Position numbers and translations under genes: made by a program. Of a DNA stretch of 64,000 nt, positions 23,570 through 34,451 are shown in pieces. The DNA lies in NCBI RefSeq assembly GCF_004143485.2, contig NZ_ML974133.1, positions 124,001-188,000 on the forward strand, given 5' to 3'. Every line of letters begins with the position of its first letter. Position 1 is the first letter of the stretch. The notes beneath the pieces are model-generated. The model searched no databases, was not told the DNA's origin, and saw nothing but the letters and a program-made list of their open reading frames with translations. The DNA comes from Halorussus amylolyticus. Lineage in GTDB: Archaea > Halobacteriota > Halobacteria > Halobacteriales > Haladaptataceae.

Positions 23570-25120
23570 TCAGAGCGGGATGTTGCCATGCTTCTTGTCC
23601 GGCTGTTCGTCGCGCTTGCTCGCGAGCATTTCGAGGTCGTCGATGAGTCGCGGGCGGGTGTTCTGGGGTTCGAGCACGTCGTCCACGAAACCGCGGTCCG
23701 CGGCGGTGTAGGGGTTGGCGAACTCCTCGCGGTACTCGTCGATGAGTTCCTCGCGGCGGGCCTCGGTGTCGTCGGCCGCCGCGAGTTCGTCGCTGTAGAG
23801 GATGTTGACCGCGCCCTTCGGTCCCATCACCGCGATTTCGGCGGTCGGCCACGCGTAGTTCACGTCCGCGCCGATGTGCTTGGATGCCATCACGTCGTAG
23901 GCTCCGCCGTAGGCCTTCCGGGTGATGACCGTGAGCAGGGGCACCGTGGCCTCCGAGTAGGCGTACAGAAGCTTCGCGCCGTGTCGGATGATGCCGCCGT
24001 GTTCCTGGTCGGTGCCGGGCATGAAGCCGGGCACGTCTACGAAGGTCAGAATGGGGACGTTGAACGAGTCGCAGAACCGCACGAACCGGGCGGCCTTCTC
24101 GGAGGCCTCGATGTCGAGCGTCCCGGCATTGACTCGGGGTTGGTTCGCCACGACGCCGATAGAGCGCCCGTCGAGTCGCGCGAAGCCGATGACGATGTTC
24201 TTGGCGTAGCCCTCTTGGACCTCGAAGAACGAATCTTCGTCCGCGACACCGCCGATGACCCGAGTCATGTCGTAGGGCTTTTTCGGCTGGTCGGGAACCA
24301 CGGATTTCAGTTCCTCGTCGCGTCGCTCGGGGTCGTCCCACGGTTCGACGCGGGGCGGATCCTCGACGTTGTTCTGCGGGACGTACGACAGCAGGCGGCG
24401 GATGTCGTCCAGCGCCTCCTTCTCGTCGGCCTCCGAGAAGTGGGCGACTCCGCTCGTGGACTCGTGGGTCTTCGCGCCGCCCAGTTCCTCGAACGACACC
24501 TGCTCGCCCGTCACCGTCTCGATGACGTCCGGGCCGGTGATGAACATGTGGCTGGTGTCGTTCACCATGAAGATGAAGTCCGTGATGGCGGGCGAGTAAA
24601 CAGCACCGCCCGCGCACGGACCCATGATGGCCGAAATCTGGGGGATAACTCCGGAGGCTTCCGTATTTCTGCGGAAGATTTCGGCGTAGCCCGCGAGCGA
24701 CGAGACGCCCTCCTGAATTCTGGCTCCCGCTGAGTCGTTCAGGCCGATGACCGGTGCGCCGACCTCCATTGCCTTGTCCATCACCTTACAGACTTTCTCG
24801 GCGAACACCTCGCCGAGCGACCCGCCGAAGACGGTGAAGTCGTGGGCGAACACGAACGTCTTCCGGCCGTTGACCTCGCCGTAGCCCGTCACCACGCCGT
24901 CGCCCTTGATTTGCTTTTCCTCCATCCCGAAGTTGTGGCTCCGGTGAGTCCGGAGTTGGTCGAACTCGTTGAAGGTGTCGTCGTCGAGGAAGTAGTCGAT
25001 GCGCTCGCGCGCGGTCATCTTGCCCTTGTCGTGCTGGGACTCGATGCGGTCTTCCCCGCCGCCCTTCAGCGCCTCCTCGCGGAGTTTCCGGAGTTCGTCT
25101 ACTTTGTCCTCCATCGTCAT
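23570..25120 (-). CDS. pccB: Propionyl/acetyl-CoA carboxylase carboxyltransferase subunit
   Basis: 516-residue carboxyltransferase subunit that moves the carboxyl group from biotin to propionyl-CoA (methylmalonyl-CoA path) or acetyl-CoA. Signatures: [62 protein letters not shown] and the tail [20 protein letters not shown]. The biotin carboxylase/carrier subunit is not in the window and must be encoded elsewhere. It forms an operon with pccX. Confidence 0.95.
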
Positions 25121-25287: not shown

Positions 25288-26622
25288 TCAGAACACCGAC
25301 ACGCCCGCGAGCGCGAGCAGATTCAGCGCGAGCGTGGCGAGTAAGAACAGCGGCAGAATCGTCCGCACGCTCCAGAGCCACGCCGGGCCGAGCGACTTCG
25401 TGGCCCGTCCCGCGCCGGAGTCGAACTCCGCGAGCGCGTCCCTGCCGAGGACCCACCCGACGAACACGAGGAACCCGGCGAGCCCGGCCGTCAGCATCAG
25501 GTCCACGAGCGGGCCGGAGACGAAGGTGAACAGGCCGGGATTCAGCGCGTTCACGCTCCCGGTCAGCAGGACGAGACCCGCGAGTCCGAGGGTCGCACTC
25601 CGTCGAGATGCACCGTGTTCGTCCACGAGGTATGCGACCGGAATTTCGAGCATGCTAATCGACGACGACAGCGCCGCGAGCGCGATGACGCCGAAGAAGA
25701 GGACCGCGAGGACCTCGCCGAACGGGACCTGCGAGAACGCGCCCGCGATGCTCACGAACAGCGCGCCGGGACCGCCGCCCGCCGCCGGGCCGGTGAGTTC
25801 GCCGAACGTCGCGAACAGGAGCGGGAAGACGACCAAGCCCGCGAGGACGCCGACGCCGGTGTTCAGCACGGCGATGGCGGCCCCGTCGAACGCGAGGTCG
25901 TGGTCGTCGCCGAGGTAGGAGGCGTAGGTAATCATCGTTCCGACGCCCAGCGAGAGCGTGAAGAGCGCCTGTCCCGCGGCCGCGCCCACCACGTCGGCGA
26001 AGTTGTCCTGCAGGTACGCGGCATCGAAGTCGAGGTAGAACGACAGGCCCGCGCCCGCGCCCGGTTGCGAGACCGCCCACGCCGCGAGCGCGACGAGCAG
26101 GACGACGATTGCTGGCATCATCACCTTCGTCGCCTTCTCGATACCGTCTCGGACCCCGCCGAGGACGATGAGCGCGGTCAGGCCGAGGAACGCGACGTGG
26201 TATCCGACTGCGGAAGCGCCGAAGTCGATAGCTTCGAAGTACGCGCCGGGCGACCCGAAGTACGACCCGGTGAAGCTCGCGAGGAAGTACCGGAGAATCC
26301 ACCCGCCGACGACGCTGTAGAACGACAGCAGGACGATTCCGGTCACAACGCCGAACAGGCCGACCGCGCCCCACGACTTCGACCCGGACAGCCGATAGAG
26401 CGCGCCAGCGGGGTTTCGCTGCGAGCGCCGCCCGATGACGAACTCCGCGAGGAGTCCCGGAACCCCGACCAGCAGGATGATTGCGAGATACACCACCAGA
26501 AACGCGCTCCCGCCGTTCTCGGCGGTCATCCACGGGAAGCGCCAGATGTTGCCCAGTCCGACCGCGCTCCCGACCGCCGCGAGGATGAAGCCGACGCGGG
26601 TGTGCCACGATTCGCGTGTCAT
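25288..26622 (-). CDS. Sodium-dependent transporter, NSS/SNF family (1)
   Basis: 444-residue secondary transporter with the LeuT-type fold of about 11-12 membrane helices. The N-terminal signature GSAVGLGNIWRFPW forms the Na+/substrate site in TM1. Prokaryotic NSS members take up amino acids. A paralogue lies directly upstream (26762-28105), separated by 139 bp, so the pair arose by duplication. The substrate is not predictable; branched-chain or aromatic amino acids are typical. Confidence 0.94.
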   Translation of the reverse strand: MTRESWHTRVGFILAAVGSAVGLGNIWRFPWMTAENGGSAFLVVYLAIILLVGVPGLLAEFVIGRRSQRNPAGALYRLSGSKSWGAVGLFGVVTGIVLLSFYSVVGGWILRYFLASFTGSYFGSPGAYFEAIDFGASAVGYHVAFLGLTALIVLGGVRDGIEKATKVMMPAIVVLLVALAAWAVSQPGAGAGLSFYLDFDAAYLQDNFADVVGAAAGQALFTLSLGVGTMITYASYLGDDHDLAFDGAAIAVLNTGVGVLAGLVVFPLLFATFGELTGPAAGGGPGALFVSIAGAFSQVPFGEVLAVLFFGVIALAALSSSISMLEIPVAYLVDEHGASRRSATLGLAGLVLLTGSVNALNPGLFTFVSGPLVDLMLTAGLAGFLVFVGWVLGRDALAEFDSGAGRATKSLGPAWLWSVRTILPLFLLATLALNLLALAGVSVF

Positions 26623-26761: not shown

Positions 26762-28105
26762 TTAGACCGACGGAATCGGCGGCATCTCGTAGAGGGTGTT
26801 CACTCCGAGCAGGAGGGTGGCGAGCACCGCGACCAGCACGAACGTCCGGACCATCCAGAGCCACGCCGGGCCGACCGACGCGAGGCCGCCGGTCCCGTTT
26901 CGGAGTTCGTCGAGCGCGACCGGGCCGAGGACCCACCCGACGAAGAAGACGCCGAGCAGGACCGACACCGGGAGCAGGAACTTGTACGCCACCGTGTCGA
27001 ACCACCCGAGCCACGCGGTGTCTCCGGCCGGGAGCGTGCCGACGACGAACAGCGCCCCGGCGAACCCGAACGCGGTCGTCTTCCGGTCGAAGCCGTACTT
27101 GTCCACGACGTAGGACGTGACGACTTCGAGCAGGCTGATGGCCGACGACAGCGCCGCGATGAGGACGACGCCGAAGAACAGGACACCGGCCGCTCGACCC
27201 GCCATCCCGAGGTCGGCGAACGCCCCCGCGACCGCGACGAACAGCGCGCCCGGCCCGCCGCCAGCGGCGGTCTCGGAGACCCCGCCCTGCTGGGCGAACA
27301 GGAGCGGAAGCACGACGAACCCGGCGAGCAGGCCGACAAGCGTGTTCAGCACGACGATGGTCGCGCCGTCGGCCGGGAGGCTCTCGTCGCCGTCGATGTA
27401 CGACGCGTAGGTAATCATCGCGCCCATCCCGAGCGAGAGCGAGAAGAACGCTTGGCTCACCGCGAACGGAACCACGTCGCCCAGATTGGCGAACAGGTAC
27501 TCGAAGTCGGGGTTGAGGTAGTACGCGTAGGCGTCGGCCGCGCCCGGCAGGGTGGCGGCGTAGATTGCGAGCGCGAGGAGGATGACGACGATGCTCGGCA
27601 CCATGAGTTTGGTCGCCTTCTCGATGCCGTCCTCGATGCCGAACGCCACGATGGACGCGGTGAACAGCATGAACAGGCCGTGGAGCGCAATCGCGTCCGG
27701 TCCCATCGAGACCGCGGCGAAGTACTCGCCCGGACTCCCGAAGTACGCGCCGGTCGCGCTTCCGAAGATGTACCGGACGACCCACCCGCCGACCACGCTG
27801 TAGTACGACAGAATCCACATCCCGGTGAACAGACCGAGCGCACCCACGATGGTCCACTCGGGGCGTTTCAGCCGACCGAACGCCTCGATGGCGTTGAGTT
27901 TCGACCGGCGACCGATGACGAACTCGCCCAGAATCGCGGGCAGGCCGATAAGGACCGCCGCGAGCAGGTAGACGAACACGAACGCCGCGCCCCCGTTGGT
28001 CGCGGTTTTGAACGGGAACTGCCAGATGTTCCCCAGTCCCACTGCGCTTCCGACGGCCGCGAGGATGAATCCGGCCCTCGTCGCCCACGTCTCTCGTTGT
28101 GACAT
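26762..28105 (-). CDS. Sodium-dependent transporter, NSS/SNF family (2)
   Basis: 447-residue paralogue of the downstream transporter, with GSAVGLGNIWQFPFKTA in TM1 (Gln for Arg and Phe for Trp at the extracellular gate relative to the first copy). The Gly-rich stretch TAAGGGPGALFVAVAGAF is shared. GGTATTTATC read on the minus strand (near 28130-28142) fits a TATA box for a near-leaderless transcript starting at ATG 28105. The gate differences may indicate a different substrate. Confidence 0.94.
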   Translation of the reverse strand: MSQRETWATRAGFILAAVGSAVGLGNIWQFPFKTATNGGAAFVFVYLLAAVLIGLPAILGEFVIGRRSKLNAIEAFGRLKRPEWTIVGALGLFTGMWILSYYSVVGGWVVRYIFGSATGAYFGSPGEYFAAVSMGPDAIALHGLFMLFTASIVAFGIEDGIEKATKLMVPSIVVILLALAIYAATLPGAADAYAYYLNPDFEYLFANLGDVVPFAVSQAFFSLSLGMGAMITYASYIDGDESLPADGATIVVLNTLVGLLAGFVVLPLLFAQQGGVSETAAGGGPGALFVAVAGAFADLGMAGRAAGVLFFGVVLIAALSSAISLLEVVTSYVVDKYGFDRKTTAFGFAGALFVVGTLPAGDTAWLGWFDTVAYKFLLPVSVLLGVFFVGWVLGPVALDELRNGTGGLASVGPAWLWMVRTFVLVAVLATLLLGVNTLYEMPPIPSV

Positions 28106-28467
28106 GCGTGACGGTGGCTTGCGAACTGCCGCGGATAAATACCACGATTCGACCGCTGTAGTGCAATTTCGCCCGAAATATTTTGAATATGTACACTATT
28201 ACGGATTCGAATCGACGAACAGTCACTCCCGTCGGTCCGGGCGACTCGACTCGGACCCGCGCCGACCGGCATCGCGCTCACACACGGGTCGTTACGTCGC
28301 GGAAACGACCGATAAATCGGACCGACTACAGGGGTCCCGGAGTCAGCGTCGGTGACGTCCGCGTCGAGCGAAACGAGCGATTACGGTCCGTTCCACCGCG
28401 AACGCCGGGGAGTGAGTCATGTGAACGTATGTCGGTATTTATCGGCTCCGAAGTGGTGGCTCGTCGT
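28106..28467. other. 362-bp divergent intergenic region
   Basis: Contains the TATA element of the second NSS gene near 28137 and an A+T-rich stretch around 28166-28203 (AAATATTTTGAATATG). No gene is supported; small open frames here have no start context or familiar sequence. TATTTATC at 28435-28442 belongs to the promoter of the next gene. Confidence 0.55.
28435..28442 (+). promoter_or_regulatory. TATA box of the permuted binding-protein gene
   Basis: TATTTATC sits about 26 bp upstream of ATG 28468, placing the transcription start at the start codon (leaderless). This favours 28468 over the in-frame ATG at 28429, which would overlap the TATA box. Confidence 0.55.
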
Positions 28468-29763
28468 ATGGCGGGAACTGTCAACAGACGCGAAGCACTG
28501 CGACGAATCGGCGCGCTCGGGGCTCTCGGAGGTCTCACCGGATGGGTCGAACGCGATACCGGAGCGCGCGGTGCGACACAGCAAGGTCCGGACCTGCTCA
28601 ACATCATCGGGTATCCGGAGAGCGGAATTCAAATCTTCCGGGACTACTACGGCAACTTCCAGCCGACCCACGACATCATCGTCCCGGACGGGCTTCAGGA
28701 CTCCTCGCTCCCCGGCGAGGTAGGCGACCCCTTGCAGGAGGTCCGGGGCACCGCGCCGGGGTCCGAGGGACCCAACGAGGACGCGTTCAATCAACTGTTC
28801 GAGGACCAGTACGACCAGACGCCGGGGGTGTTCAATTCCCACACCTACGACGCGGTGGCGGTCTGCATCCTCGCGAACGTCGCGGCCGGCGAGAACGACG
28901 GCGAGGCCATCCGCGGTCAGATGCGTCGGGTCGCCAATCCGGAGGGCGAGGAGTACGGGCCGGGCGAATTCGTCGAGGCCGCCGAAGCGGTCGCCAACAG
29001 CGAGGAAATCAACTATCAGGGCGCGTCGAGCAGCGTGAACTTCGACGACGTGGGCGACCCTGCAGACACGGCGTACGACGTTTGGCAGTTCTCCGACGGC
29101 AACGTCGAGGTCATCGATACAATCGAGTTCGAGGGCGAGGGACCCGGCGGGGAGATGGCCGACGAGAGTCCCGGCGGTCTCGGCCGCGAGGTCAGAGTCG
29201 CGATACTCCTGCCCCGGACGGGCGACCTCGGTTCGGTGGGGACGCCGATGATTCAGGCCGGACAGCTTCCGGCCCAACAGATTAACGACTCCGACCTCGA
29301 CCTGAGCGTGGACTTGACCGTCGAGGACACGCAGACCGACCGCGAAGCCACGCTGAGTTCGGGCGAAGCGCTCGTGAACGCGGGCTACCCGGCTATCGTC
29401 GGCGCGGCGTCCTCCGGGAACTCGGTTCCGCTCGTGGACGTGACCTCGTCGGCTGGCGTCGTCCAGTGTTCGCCAGCGAGCACCGCACTCAGCCTCTCGG
29501 AAATCGAGGACGACGACTACTTCTTCCGGACCGCGCCGAGCGACCTGCTGCAGGGGCAGGTGATGGCACAGGTCGCCGCCGAGCGCCTCGGCGCGCAGAC
29601 CGCCTCGACGCTCTACGTCAACAACGACTACGGCCAACAGCTTTCGAATCAGTTCGTCGAGTCGTTCCAGAGCGACCAGGGCGGCGAGGTGTTGCGGGAG
29701 GTGTCGTTCGAAATCGGTCAGGGGTCGTACACTGCGCAGCTCGAATCCGCGCTGGCTCCGTGA
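28468..29763 (+). CDS. Circularly permuted LivJ-type substrate-binding protein
   Basis: 431 residues. A twin-arginine signal (NRREALRRIGALGALGGLTG) lacks the usual lipobox Cys. Next comes what is normally the C-terminal half of a branched-chain amino-acid binding protein (PDLLNIIGYPESGIQIFRD, GVFNSHTYDAVAV, INYQGASSSVNFDDVGD). A Gly/Glu/Asp-rich linker (~residues 224-243) then leads into the normal N-terminal half (VRVAILLPRTGDLGSVGTP, DTQTDREATLSSGEALVNAG, AAERLGAQTASTLYVNNDYG). The protein stops at SYTAQLESALAP, exactly where PDLLNIIGYPESG should follow. Both halves are complete and in one frame with no stops. It is convergent with livGMH at 31094-34370. It may bind amino acids in permuted form or be a rearrangement relic still kept open. 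Confidence 0.85.
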   Translation: MAGTVNRREALRRIGALGALGGLTGWVERDTGARGATQQGPDLLNIIGYPESGIQIFRDYYGNFQPTHDIIVPDGLQDSSLPGEVGDPLQEVRGTAPGSEGPNEDAFNQLFEDQYDQTPGVFNSHTYDAVAVCILANVAAGENDGEAIRGQMRRVANPEGEEYGPGEFVEAAEAVANSEEINYQGASSSVNFDDVGDPADTAYDVWQFSDGNVEVIDTIEFEGEGPGGEMADESPGGLGREVRVAILLPRTGDLGSVGTPMIQAGQLPAQQINDSDLDLSVDLTVEDTQTDREATLSSGEALVNAGYPAIVGAASSGNSVPLVDVTSSAGVVQCSPASTALSLSEIEDDDYFFRTAPSDLLQGQVMAQVAAERLGAQTASTLYVNNDYGQQLSNQFVESFQSDQGGEVLREVSFEIGQGSYTAQLESALAP

Positions 29764-29939
29764 GGCCGACCTGACCGGCCTCGTCGAAACTCTCGTGGCG
29801 GTCCACTTTCGGGCAGAAGCACCCGAATACAGACCGACCACCAACGGATTCGGACCGGATATGCATCGGACGAAGCAGCGACGCGGAACGGTGTCTTACG
29901 GTGAACAAGTGCTTTGGGTTTCGACCCCGACGACTCTGT

Positions 29940-30449
29940 ATGGGACGCGACCTCGATGACGTGGACCGAAGCATCCTCTATCTGCTTCAGACAGACGCCC
30001 GAAACACGACCGCCCAAGAGATTGCCGACCAGGTCGGGGTCTCGGCCAGTACCGTCCGCAACCGTATCGACACTCTCGAAACCGACGGGATAATCCAAGG
30101 GTACCATCCGGAAATCGACTACGAAGCGGCCAACCTCCCCTTGCAAGTGTCCTTCGTCGTGACTGTGCCGCCGACCGAACTGACCGACTACTCCGAGCAG
30201 GTCCGGGGGATTCAAGGCGTGATTGACGTTCGAGAGATGCTCACCGGTCGTCGGAACATCCACGTCGATGTGGTCGGGACGAGTACGCGCGATATCACAA
30301 GAATCACTGACGCTATCCACGACATCGGCGCTGAAATCGAGAGTTCGGAGATGATGCGTCGGCGGCACGTCCAGCCGTTCAACCACTTCTTCCTGCAAGG
30401 AACGGATGATATGAGCGCGCGCGGCGACGATTCTGAAGGCGAACGATGA
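29940..30449 (+). CDS. Lrp/AsnC-family transcription regulator
   Basis: 169 residues. The N-terminal winged HTH reads LDDVDRSILYLLQTDARNTT and IADQVGVSASTVRNRI, then a RAM-like ligand-binding domain (VSFVVTVPPTELTDYSEQV, VREMLTGRRNIHVDVVG). The C-terminal tail is longer than average and polar. It lies between the binding-protein gene and livGMH, so amino-acid-responsive control of that locus is likely, but this is inferred from position. Confidence 0.9.
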   Translation: MGRDLDDVDRSILYLLQTDARNTTAQEIADQVGVSASTVRNRIDTLETDGIIQGYHPEIDYEAANLPLQVSFVVTVPPTELTDYSEQVRGIQGVIDVREMLTGRRNIHVDVVGTSTRDITRITDAIHDIGAEIESSEMMRRRHVQPFNHFFLQGTDDMSARGDDSEGER

Positions 30450-30478
30450 CCGACGGGGTGAGCGCCAACTGATTGCGA

Positions 30479-30565
30479 GATTCCGCAGAATACGACGGCT
30501 ATATTCGGAATCACTCATTTCACAATCTGAAATGCACAGGTCCCACACCAGTTTTCTGCGGAATC
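30479..30565. repeat. 87-bp A+T-richer segment bounded by 12-bp inverted repeats
   Basis: GATTCCGCAGAA (30479-30490) and TTCTGCGGAATC (30554-30565) are exact reverse complements. An inner CATTTCA/TGAAATG hairpin lies between them. GCGCCAACT occurs on both sides (30462-30470 and 30610-30618). It could be a tiny MITE-like insertion or a terminator/operator between the Lrp and wHTH genes. Confidence 0.55.
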
Positions 30566-30685
30566 CATAATATACCCATTTGTGTTCACAATACCGTTAT
30601 CCGTGCTTTGCGCCAACTACTACGAGAGGACGTGACCGCCGAAGGTATCGGCTGTCCTTCAGGGGCACATCTTCGGAGACACAGT

Positions 30686-30979
30686 ATGAACGACAAATCC
30701 TTCGATGCGCTACGGAACGAACACCGCCGAGAGCTGTTGCTCGCGCTCCTCGAACACAATCCCCAGACGGTCACCAAACCAATCCCTGCGGGTGGGGAGG
30801 TAGCGCCTGCGGATGCCGACCGGCAGTTCCAGACCGCGATGTACCATCAACACCTCCCCAAACTCGAAGAGTACGGCTTCATTGGGTGGGATAGGGACTC
30901 GCACGAAATCGTCAAGGGGCCACAATTCGACGACATTCGCCCCTTGCTTGGGTGCATACACGACCACACGGAGCGCTGA
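30686..30979 (+). CDS. Small winged-helix-like protein (haloarchaeal ArsR-like/DUF7344 type)
   Basis: 97 residues: FDALRNEHRRELLLALLEHN, a disordered Pro/Gly/Ala segment, then YHQHLPKLEEYGFIGWDRDSHEIVKGPQFDDIRPLL. This is the layout of the small haloarchaeal DUF7344-type winged-helix proteins, in which an HTH is followed by a beta wing. It is probably a DNA-binding regulator. The start is the ATG at 30686; no other frame competes. Neighbours are the Lrp regulator upstream and convergent livG downstream. Confidence 0.75.
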   Translation: MNDKSFDALRNEHRRELLLALLEHNPQTVTKPIPAGGEVAPADADRQFQTAMYHQHLPKLEEYGFIGWDRDSHEIVKGPQFDDIRPLLGCIHDHTER

Positions 30980-31093
30980 GTGCCGACAGGAGTCGAACGT
31001 CTGATTCGACCGAACAGTCGCAGTTGTACACGCCCGAACGCACGTCCGAGTCCGTCGAAACCCTATTCTGTGCCAGCACAGAGCCGCCCGACT

Positions 31094-31927
31094 CTATATC
31101 TCGCTCCCGAGATACGCTTCGATGACCTCCTCGTCGGCCTTGATGTCGGCGGGGGTTCCCTCCGTGAGCACCCGACCCTGATACATCACGATGATGTGTT
31201 CGCAGTGGTTCATGATGAGGTCCATGTCGTGTTCGACGACGAGGAACGTCCGCCCCTCGTCGTTGAGTTCCTCGACGCGTTCGAGAAGCTTCTTCTGGAG
31301 CGTGGGGTTGACCCCCGCGAACGGTTCGTCGAGCATGAGCATCGTCGGGTCGAGCATCAGTGCCCGCGACAGTTCGAGGAGCTTTCGCTGGCCGCCCGAG
31401 AGATTGCTGGCCTTCTCCTCGGCGAGATGCGCTATCTCGAAGAATTCGAGAACCTCCCAGACGCGGTCCCGGAGCGCGCGCTCTTCGTCCACCACCCGGC
31501 GTCTGAATCCGGGGAGCACCGACCGCCAGAGCGCCTCGCCGCCCTGGGCTTTCGCCGGGAGCATCAGATTCTCGAACACGGTCAGATTCGGCAGTTCGCG
31601 CACGATTTGAAACGTCCGGACGAGACCTCGGTTGGCGACTTGGTACGGTCGTAGACCGGTGATGTCCTCGCCCTGAAACCGCACGGTGCCCGCGTCGGGG
31701 TCCTCGATACCCGTGACGAGGTTGAACACTGTCGATTTGCCCGCGCCGTTCGGACCGATGAGTCCGGTCATCGAACCTCGCTCGACGCCGAACGTCGCGC
31801 CATCGACCGCGGTGATTCCGCCGAAGTTCTTGTGGAGGTCCTCGACCCGGAGTACCGCCTCGACGCCCTCCCCGGTTCGTTCCGATTCGGCGCTCGACTC
31901 GTCCTCGTGGGCGAGCGTCTCGCTCAT
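31094..31927 (-). CDS. livG: Branched-chain amino-acid ABC transporter ATPase LivG
   Basis: 277 residues. Walker A GPNGAGKST, signature LSGGQRKLLELSRAL, Walker B LMLDEPFAGV; the LivG-type stretch YQVANRGLVRTFQIVRELPN is present. The start is placed at MSETLAHEDESS (ATG overlapping the livM stop by 4 bp); the longer open frame is a shadow of livM. It is the last gene of livHMG; a LivF ATPase is not found in this window. Confidence 0.93.
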   Translation of the reverse strand: MSETLAHEDESSAESERTGEGVEAVLRVEDLHKNFGGITAVDGATFGVERGSMTGLIGPNGAGKSTVFNLVTGIEDPDAGTVRFQGEDITGLRPYQVANRGLVRTFQIVRELPNLTVFENLMLPAKAQGGEALWRSVLPGFRRRVVDEERALRDRVWEVLEFFEIAHLAEEKASNLSGGQRKLLELSRALMLDPTMLMLDEPFAGVNPTLQKKLLERVEELNDEGRTFLVVEHDMDLIMNHCEHIIVMYQGRVLTEGTPADIKADEEVIEAYLGSEI

Positions 31928-33246
31928 CGGTCGCTCGCCTCCTCGGTCTCCTCGCGGGCGAGCGCCTCTGCTGTCTCGTCGGAGCGCCTCCTGAGCGGGA
32001 CGGCGGCCGCGGTCTCGGTCCGATGGCCGAGCAGTCCCTCGGGTCGGTTCTGCATCAGCCAGACGAGGACCACACCCATGAAGACGAACTGGAGCGTCAG
32101 CATGTTGTTGAACAGGTACGCGACGATGGGCTGGAAGTTGAGTGCGAACATCGGTCCGACCGCGTCGGCGAACGTGCCGGGCGGCTGGCCGACCGAAATC
32201 TGGCTTCCGATGACTCGCCGAAGGTACTGGGGACCCTCGAACAGTCCGGCGGTGAAGATGCCCGCACCGAGGATGCTCCCGGTGTTCGACCCCGCGCCGC
32301 CGATGATGAGCGCAATCCAGATGTAGAACGTGACGTGCGGGCGGAATGCGCTCGGCGTGATGCCCGCGCGGCGGAACTGCCAGAGGATGCCCGCCAACCC
32401 CATCAGCGCACACCCGAGCATGAAGGACTTGATTTTGAACGCGCTCGTGTTCTTCCCGAGCGCGTTGGTCGCCTCCTCGTCCTCGCGAATCGCCTTGAGG
32501 ACCCGTCCGAACGGCGACTCGCCGGTCCGCTTCAACAGGAGGTAGTAGGCGGCGAGCACGACCACGAGGACCGCGGTGTAGAGGACCGCTTGGGCCTGTG
32601 ACGGGCTGAACTCGATGAACCGATTCACGAACGCCGTCGCCCCCTCGAAAATCGGGAGTTCGTAGAGTCCCACCATCGGGTCGCGGAAATTGAACAGCAG
32701 TCCCCGGCCGCCCCCGGTTCCGGTCGTGTAGCCGAAGATGGTGAACTCCTGAAACGGGGCCGCGGTGTAGAGCAGGCGAACGATTTCGGCGAACGCGATG
32801 GTGACGATGGCGAAGTAGTCCGCCCGGAGTCGGAGCGCCGGGAGCGCGACCACGAAGCCAGCGAGCGCCGCGGCGACGACACCGCCGAGGATGGCTATCG
32901 GTATCGGGAGTCCGAGACCCGCGTACTGGGCACCGCCGGTCGGAACCGCGGGCTTTGCCAGCATCGCCATCGTGTACAGTCCAACCGCCATGAACCCGGC
33001 GACGCCGATGTTGAACAGGCCGGTGTACCCCCAGTGGAGATTGAGCGCGAGCGCGACCATCGAGTAGATGGCGACGAGAAAGGTGAGTCGGCGAAGCGTG
33101 TTCACCATCCCACCGGGCGAATAGCCGAGAATCACGCCGACGAGGATGTAGGTGACGTAGATAGCGAGCATGAGCCCCGCGATTTTCGCCGCATCGGCCG
33201 CCAGAAGGTCGCTCGCGAGCGTTCGGAGGTCGGGGCGCTCGGTCAT
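31924..33246 (-). CDS. livM: Branched-chain amino-acid ABC transporter permease LivM
   Basis: 440-residue permease with ~9-10 helices. The family motif region is LRLRADYFAIVTIAFAEIVR, and the cytoplasmic coupling loop GRVLKAIREDEEATNALG contacts the ATPases. It overlaps livH and livG by 4 bp each. A hydrophilic acidic C-terminal tail of ~35 residues extends beyond the core. Confidence 0.93.
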   Translation of the reverse strand: MTERPDLRTLASDLLAADAAKIAGLMLAIYVTYILVGVILGYSPGGMVNTLRRLTFLVAIYSMVALALNLHWGYTGLFNIGVAGFMAVGLYTMAMLAKPAVPTGGAQYAGLGLPIPIAILGGVVAAALAGFVVALPALRLRADYFAIVTIAFAEIVRLLYTAAPFQEFTIFGYTTGTGGGRGLLFNFRDPMVGLYELPIFEGATAFVNRFIEFSPSQAQAVLYTAVLVVVLAAYYLLLKRTGESPFGRVLKAIREDEEATNALGKNTSAFKIKSFMLGCALMGLAGILWQFRRAGITPSAFRPHVTFYIWIALIIGGAGSNTGSILGAGIFTAGLFEGPQYLRRVIGSQISVGQPPGTFADAVGPMFALNFQPIVAYLFNNMLTLQFVFMGVVLVWLMQNRPEGLLGHRTETAAAVPLRRRSDETAEALAREETEEASDR

Positions 33247-34370
33247 GCTGTCGTCCTCCCGGCGAACAGCCCCTGCGGTTTGAGCAGCAAGACGAGAATC
33301 ATGATGCCGAACGCGGCCACGAGGTCGAAGTCACCCGTCGGAAGCCAGACCAGCGAGAGTCGCATCGCGATGCCGATGACCAGACCACCGAAGATAGCGC
33401 CGTACACCGACCCGATGCCGCCGAGGATGACCGCCGCGAAGATGAGCAGGAGGAGGAGCCACCCGAACTGGAAGTCGATGGTGCCCGTCCAGAGCACCAT
33501 CAGGTAGCCCGCCATTCCGGATAGCCCGCCGCCGATAATCCACGTCCACCGGATGACCCGCTCGGTCGGGATGCCCGTGATGAGCGCGAGGTCGCGGTTG
33601 TCCGACATCGCGCGCATCGCCTTCCCGAGTTTCGTCCGCTGCAAGAGCAGGTGGACCCCGACCATCAGCGCCACGGTGGCGACGAGCAACGTCGCGTCGT
33701 GGGCGTCCACCAACAGCGACCCGTCCACGAGTGGTATCGCGGTTCCGGGCTGTCGGAGCGTCGTCCCGCGGGTCCGCGCGGAGTAGACGAGGACGACGAG
33801 GTATCGGAGCGCGAACGCGACCCCGATACTGGCGATTAACAACGGGATGCCCCCGGCGTCGCGCATCGGGCGGTACACGATTCGGTCGAGCAGTAGCACC
33901 AAGAGAATCGTCGCGAGTCCGGCCGCGACCAAACCGACGAGAACCGCGAACGGCGTGCTCGTGATGCCGATTTCGAGCAGGCCGCCGGTCACGTTTCCCT
34001 GCGGAGCGACGAGCAGGAGGTGGCCGAAGTTCGCGGACCCCCAGCCAGCGATGACGTAGGTGATTCCCCACCCCATGAACGCGCCCGAGGTGATGTAATC
34101 CCCGTGAGCGAAGTTGGCGAACTGGAGGATACCGTAGGTCAGCGACAGACCGATGCCCGCCAGTCCGATGATTAGGCCGTACATCAGCCCGTCCCAGACG
34201 AATCGCCCGATGCGCGAGACGCTGTACCGTCCGGTCGCCATCCCGCTCACCAAGTCGAACAGGAGGAGCAGACCGGCGAGTCCGACTAGCACTTCGAACG
34301 GTCGCTCCTCGACGACGGTCCGACCCCGCGAATACGATTCCCCGATGGCCGCCATAAGCGGACCCCCCAT
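33243..34370 (-). CDS. livH: Branched-chain amino-acid ABC transporter permease LivH
   Basis: 375-residue permease. Signatures: LTYGILQFANFAHGDYI, and the coupling loop TKLGKAMRAMSDNRDLALITGI. An upstream start at 34418 is possible but would add non-homologous residues; ATG 34370 (MGGPLMAAIGESY) or 34355 is more likely. It is first of the livHMG operon, transcribed away from the SDR gene. Confidence 0.9.
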   Translation of the reverse strand: MGGPLMAAIGESYSRGRTVVEERPFEVLVGLAGLLLLFDLVSGMATGRYSVSRIGRFVWDGLMYGLIIGLAGIGLSLTYGILQFANFAHGDYITSGAFMGWGITYVIAGWGSANFGHLLLVAPQGNVTGGLLEIGITSTPFAVLVGLVAAGLATILLVLLLDRIVYRPMRDAGGIPLLIASIGVAFALRYLVVLVYSARTRGTTLRQPGTAIPLVDGSLLVDAHDATLLVATVALMVGVHLLLQRTKLGKAMRAMSDNRDLALITGIPTERVIRWTWIIGGGLSGMAGYLMVLWTGTIDFQFGWLLLLLIFAAVILGGIGSVYGAIFGGLVIGIAMRLSLVWLPTGDFDLVAAFGIMILVLLLKPQGLFAGRTTA

Positions 34371-34451
34371 ACCTATGCTAATTGTGTACAAACACCAATA
34401 CCTATCGGATACAGTCATCTCCGGGAGAGGAACGCACCGGACGAGAATCGT

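Follow-up and report, generated by a model that had tools for sequence, protein, structure and literature searches.

A circularly permuted LivJ-type binding protein in Halorussus amylolyticus and the apparent recurrence of its permutation in haloarchaea

A single reading frame of the archaeon Halorussus amylolyticus raises a question of protein topology: the two halves of a branched-chain amino acid binding protein stand in reverse order, and one must ask whether this order is genuine, what such a protein does, and how the order came about. The frame lies in a window of 64,000 nucleotides (the whole stretch of DNA analyzed here; contig NZ_ML974133.1, positions 124,001 to 188,000), where it occupies positions 28468–29763 of the plus strand and encodes, unbroken in translation, a protein of 431 residues. 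Pfam and PDB sequence searches identify this protein as a LivJ-type binding protein of the Peripla_BP_6/HAAT family. A sequence-only reading of the same DNA had claimed swapped halves in this frame and at these coordinates, and the translation and the split profile matches described below bear this out. The chain runs from a Tat signal to a C-half (residues 40–222), a linker (223–239), and an N-half (240–430), encoded as follows:

28436..28443, plus strand: TATA-like box TATTTATC, ~28 nt 5' of the ATG; candidate leaderless promoter, seen by eye
28468..28584, plus strand: Tat-type signal region NRREALRRIGALGALGGLTGW..., without a lipobox Cys in this copy; read in the sequence by eye
28585..29133, plus strand: canonical C-terminal half, residues 40–222, equivalent to LivK 193 onward
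29134..29184, plus strand: 17-residue linker GEGPGGEMADESPGGLG, residues 223–239, bridging the ancestral C- and N-termini
29185..29763, plus strand: canonical N-terminal half and stop codon, residues 240–431, equivalent to LivK 1–192

A spacing of ~28 nt between such a box and the start codon is typical for haloarchaeal leaderless genes, and the leaderless promoter proposed earlier for this gene looks plausible by eye. A twin-arginine export signal can also be read by eye in the window protein. The lipobox Cys, reported missing, is indeed absent from the window copy and its nearest relative, the only two proteins to lack it, but the observation does not extend to most permuted relatives, which carry a Tat lipobox (RR...LAGC) with a Gly/acidic tether behind it. 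In the main permuted clade, the linker is conserved as G[ED].P.G.MADESPGG.

When the sequence is rotated back to the canonical order, it scores higher than the native sequence in all three comparisons made, as swapped halves imply. The Pfam profile Peripla_BP_6 matches the native ORF in two pieces, the best being residues 241–428 against profile positions 1–186, with a score of 91.9 bits, whereas the rotated sequence reaches 108.7 bits in a single stretch spanning profile positions 1–312 of 343; the cut-off is 31.7 bits, which the native order also passes, as two stretches. The best solved relative, Thermotoga maritima 3td9, aligns to the native sequence in two stretches of swapped order (69 bits; 51.3 + 16.5) and to the rotated sequence in a single stretch, 3–353 (87 bits). 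Against a profile of normal-order haloarchaeal proteins, the native sequence is matched as two domains (255 and 248 bits) and the rotated sequence as one (519 bits), and a scan over all rotations with this profile has its maximum at residues 224–240, i.e., at the linker. The window protein is a permuted variant of the Peripla_BP_6/HAAT family that does not follow the canonical N-then-C order. As the native chain scores below its rotated version against its own Pfam family, profile annotation splits or overlooks permuted proteins of this kind.

Structure prediction gives a confident fold, in agreement with the earlier proposal. The AlphaFold model of the mature permuted protein (topology CP1) has a pLDDT of 91.5 and a pTM of 0.90, and its N-half (residues 205–396) matches 4n0q and 3ipc with a Z-score of 14 and 1.8–1.9 Å over 190 residues; only this half is placed because the aligner is sequential and the chain order differs. 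The model of a second topology discussed below (CP2) has a pLDDT of 93.6 and a pTM of 0.91, and its residues 7–345 match 3td9 with a Z-score of 33.8 and 2.0 Å over 307 residues. A further structural match, 5er3 (row 2–368), was considered as a permuted relative and set aside (Z-score 13.4, rmsd 4.8 Å, 11% identity). Alignment with E. coli LivK/LivJ places the pocket of the window protein at S316, A337, T339, D359, Y388, Y49, and D74, equivalent to LivK S79, G/A100, T102, D121, Y150, Y202, and E226, with D74 representing a change from E to D; we take these LivK residues to contact the ligand. The pocket residues S, A/S, T, D, Y, Y, and D are nearly invariant in permuted and normal-order relatives. 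Judging from the models and the alignment, the two-lobed Type I fold and the amino acid pocket are predicted to be intact despite permutation.

The genomic setting of the gene links it to normal-order proteins. Relatives with normal order and ~50% identity are found in many haloarchaea (e.g., Halogranum, Halobium, Halobaculum, Natronomonas), and the permuted genes, together with most normal-order ones, are convergent with livF, livG, livM, and livH. The window (permuted) and locus L128 (normal order) have a common block that contains a carboxyltransferase, an SNF transporter, the binding protein, the liv genes, an SDR, and an oxidoreductase (QOR). Where the linker of a permuted protein begins and ends, a normal-order protein has its termini: it ends in ‘...TIQFE-A’ and starts with ‘RTIQYG’, and the permuted chain reads ‘...TIEFE-linker-REVRVA’. 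In the window, the binding-protein gene is followed by:

29901..30449, plus strand: Lrp/AsnC-like regulator, at the livF position of relatives; family from sequence reading, not from a profile
31097..31933, minus strand: LivG-type ATPase, convergent with the window binding protein
31927..33246, minus strand: LivM-type permease, from locus comparison and ORF translation
33243..34418, minus strand: LivH-type permease, from locus comparison and ORF translation

In this cluster, livGMH adjoin the binding-protein gene and livF is absent (29901–31097 region). The same contig carries a complete livHMGF set that lacks a binding protein, 60-odd kb away (G000:C4:86.3–90.4 kb, L242), and the second permuted binding protein of the genome (C5, L113) has no liv genes nearby. 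The two liv systems of this genome may be split and mixed, and the window copy may be specialized, partly decoupled from the complete importer, or using components in common with the other one. Halobacteriales archaeon SW_6_65_15, the closest relative, has its permuted gene and the oppositely oriented livG overlapping at their 3' ends (L033, 11251–11287), which looks as if an intervening livF had been deleted. Elsewhere in the window, two adjacent SNF (sodium:neurotransmitter symporter)-like genes lie on the minus strand at 25288–26622 and 26762–28105 and adjoin a carboxyltransferase gene at 23570–25120, all three families being assigned by sequence reading only.

We favor, with considerable confidence, the reading that the window gene encodes the binding protein of a HAAT (LivHMGF) importer, permuted by duplication and fusion on three or more occasions, each at the same cut and locus. 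The permuted protein would act as the extracellular substrate-binding component of a branched-chain-amino-acid-type ABC importer, exported in folded form via Tat and lipid-anchored in most relatives. We infer that an amino acid or similar small molecule is its most likely ligand, bound between the lobes and then handed to LivHM. An alternative that we consider unlikely is a free extracellular sensor or scavenger with no part in transport, at least in the window genome, where the protein lacks a lipobox and an adjacent livF and an Lrp/AsnC-like gene lies directly downstream. Against this, the pocket residues and the adjoining livGMH are conserved, and most relatives are lipoproteins encoded beside a complete livFGMH.

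The swapped order is shared by many related genes. The same genome encodes, on another contig, a permuted paralogue with 58% identity that is collinear over residues 5–430 and has a normal Tat lipobox. A search for the same order in related genomes, suggested by the sequence-only reading, found collinear permuted copies in at least 146 of the 391 haloarchaeal (class-level) genomes sampled, or ~167 of 391 if genomes read from the best-E column only also count. Carriers with confirmed order include Natrialba, Natronorubrum, Haloterrigena, Halorubrum, Haloferax, Halobellus, Haladaptatus, Halorussus, and Halogeometricum, and many isolate genomes of Natrialbaceae have permuted genes at ~70% identity. 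No match outside haloarchaea was found at E ≤ 1e-60 among 295 genomes sampled across the phylum, plasmid records yielded normal-order relatives only (judged from two-piece matches), and the proteome and glycoproteome papers on Haloferax volcanii contain no identifiable mention of this protein.

Phylogenetic trees were built after re-ordering all sequences to the canonical order. In the binding-protein tree, the permuted sequences do not group together but branch at several points from among normal ones: a main permuted clade comprises the window protein, Natrialbaceae, Haloferacaceae, Haladaptatus, and others; a second lineage is formed by genus g21 of family f4 and relatives; and a third, mainly genus g7 of family f5, has normal-order proteins as its nearest relatives. 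A single permuted clade is rejected in this tree (AU p = 0.0057, where the grouping is by chain order, an observed trait, but the tree had already been inspected beforehand). Deep nodes are weakly supported, and trees of the N-half and the C-half require three to four order changes each. The tree of the linked LivHMG proteins, whose genes are not permuted, gives the same three placements independently of the binding protein; it requires at least three changes on starred branches and rejects both a single permuted clade (p = 1.7e-41) and the joining of the two minor permuted lineages (p = 1.1e-9). The f4/g21 lineage and genome G217 may represent one origin.

The junctions can be compared along the same lines. 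The linker reads G[ED]NP.G.G.MADESPGG in the main clade,.SG.IPQPEP.GSGSDSG in the second lineage, and NELSDED.NATAADPVGVD in the third, and these sequences are mutually unalignable. The cut, at LivK 192/193 (...SALS / PDxLxVxGYP), is identical across lineages to within a few residues, and the outgroup proteins, from Halanaerobium and cyanobacteria, have the normal order. These data are read most simply as three or more separate permutations at a single loop. The TCCG repeats that had been pointed out at both junctions of the window gene, as a possible microhomology, are uninformative because TCCG occurs 15 times within the gene and the junctions are old and clade-wide.

The shared cut and the poorly resolved deep branches of the binding-protein tree would also suit a single ancient permutation, followed by several reversions or by gene conversion obscuring the tree. 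This account is improbable in our estimate: the binding-protein and LivHMG trees independently agree on three places and reject one clade, the linkers of different lineages do not align, and the outgroups are in normal order. Moreover, each reversion would amount to a new permutation, restoring the exact original termini without a linker, which is less likely than a repeated forward event.

The second topology, CP2, was seen in only three of the 391 genomes (L147, L148, L149). Its order is N(36–191)-C-linker-N(1–35), so that only β1-α1 is shifted to the C-terminus, with a cut at about LivK 35/36. The CP2 genes have the same convergent livFGMH synteny. They lie inside the main permuted clade, carry the main-clade linker, and have the first cut healed to the normal ‘ALSGDPDTLVVIGYP’; for these three reasons, CP2 must go back to a gene that was already permuted, the simplest path being its duplication in tandem with subsequent fusion and trimming. 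The LivHMG tree fails to reject a clade consisting of CP2 only (p = 0.055), which is compatible with one or two origins. In a wider scenario, the lobe-2 loop would have been the site of three or more permutations, and a lineage already permuted would have been re-cut once or twice at a second site; the drivers would be frequent duplication in tandem and selection acting on which lobe bears the tether. We consider this scenario about as likely as not.

In general terms, the proposed route to the permuted gene can be divided into three steps. (i) The gene would duplicate in tandem. (ii) The neighboring copies would fuse in frame, turning the old C-terminus and a remnant of the tether into the linker. 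(iii) The outer N-half and the outer C-half would be lost. The new chain starts at the loop before a lobe-2 strand (LivK 193) and ends just before that strand (LivK 192), and the N-terminal lipid tether is thereby relocated from lobe 1 to lobe 2, a position that may be of advantage. Support for duplication comes from tandem pairs of permuted genes in Haladaptatus and relatives (L006, L007, L010, L011, L013–L016, L041), from tandem triplets of normal-order genes in Halorussus (L115, L116), and from CP2; the tandem copies are mostly ~100–280 bp apart. Among the loci examined, there was no fused double copy (N-C-N-C) and no frame with two copies of one half; since a full-length fused double copy was not found, the route stands without its central intermediate. 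A long open frame in genome G165 proved to be an ordinary permuted gene with a stop-to-stop extension rather than a fused double copy.

Fission followed by fusion, in which two once independent half genes were joined again in the opposite order, would likewise account for intact halves and for a linker placed exactly at the old termini. We regard it as quite improbable, given that the loci contain full or damaged copies only and no free-standing half genes, that the cut falls inside lobe 2 rather than at the lobe boundary, and that CP2 moves only β1-α1 and has a scarless first junction, as duplication and truncation give directly.

Selection on the window gene can be gauged against an orthologue of 86% identity in another genome, from which it differs by a dS of 0.55 and a dN of 0.076 (dN/dS ~0.14). 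The dN is low in the C-half and the N-half alike, indicating that purifying selection acts on the permuted frame. This ratio, the paralogue, and the uninterrupted frame uphold the view that the gene is not random debris and, with the rotation scores, the collinear orthologues, and the confident fold, identify it as a genuine, seemingly expressed, natural circularly permuted LivJ-type protein. A rearranged pseudogene or an assembly artefact, which the loss of the lipobox and of the neighboring livF might suggest, is extremely improbable in view of the intact frame, the confident predicted fold, the conserved orthologue with low dN in both halves, the ~70% identical permuted genes in many Natrialbaceae isolates, and the 58% identical paralogue on another contig.

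How does this protein compare with known systems? It shares with LivJ/LivK (3td9, E. coli LivK; Cluster B/Type I) the family, the lobes, the pocket, and the neighboring LivHMG(F), but differs in the order C-linker-N instead of N-C, in the tether on lobe 2, and in the extra 17-residue linker. The permutation had been thought undescribed; this holds for LivJ/HAAT proteins in the literature searched, but not for periplasmic binding proteins overall (PMC4990184, PMC2395249). TpMglB-2 (Tp0684) of Treponema pallidum and relatives is a natural permutant named ‘Type Ic/Cluster Bc’, a membrane-tethered protein of an ABC importer that binds glucose and changes conformation (PMC4990184). Its cut moves the first three strands of lobe 1, its permuted part has diverged too far (13%) to point to a clear ancestor, and the authors of that study speculated on tethering (PMC4990184). 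Both TpMglB-2 and the haloarchaeal protein are circularly permuted Type I/Cluster B binding proteins; however, the former belongs to the sugar (MglB) family of spirochaetes and Gram-positives, whereas the latter is LivJ-type, is cut in lobe 2 at LivK ~192/193, has ~50%-identical normal-order orthologues at the same locus, and has several origins by our reading.

Glycine-betaine-binding OpuAC and ProX were reported as a circular permutation family by CPSARST (PMC2395249). As with the haloarchaeal proteins, they have a common fold and are related by permutation, but their identity is <24%, they were found by structure comparison only, and they offer no recent orthologue pair. They belong to another fold class, Type II. 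In DNA methyltransferases and other families, several natural permutations arose by duplication, with more than one topology per family (PMC3320104). Those rearrangements are ancient and lie between diverged classes, in contrast to the haloarchaeal proteins, which are orthologues within one class of archaea that differ in topology at a conserved locus and have a recurring cut. A LivJ-type, archaeal, widespread, and recurrent permutation was not found in the literature searched, a scope that leaves out most subscription journals. Thus, permuted binding proteins are already known, and the surprising part is the recurrence at one site.

Natural permutation is usually inferred between distant proteins, where neither its route nor its benefit is open to test. 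In the present case, normal and permuted orthologues of ~50% identity are found beside the same transporter genes in culturable archaea, which makes testable the duplication-truncation route, the reuse of certain loops, and the functional effect of moved termini and tether. The tandem duplicates are likely living precursors, and CP2 is a candidate second-generation topology that has kept the first linker. If true, repeated permutation would be a natural, repeatable evolution experiment on protein topology.

Damaged permuted copies were observed at L150/L232 (genome G108), L151 (G381), and L234 (G348); the damage among them includes an N-half split by ~1.4 kb, a frameshift with truncation, and a truncated second copy.
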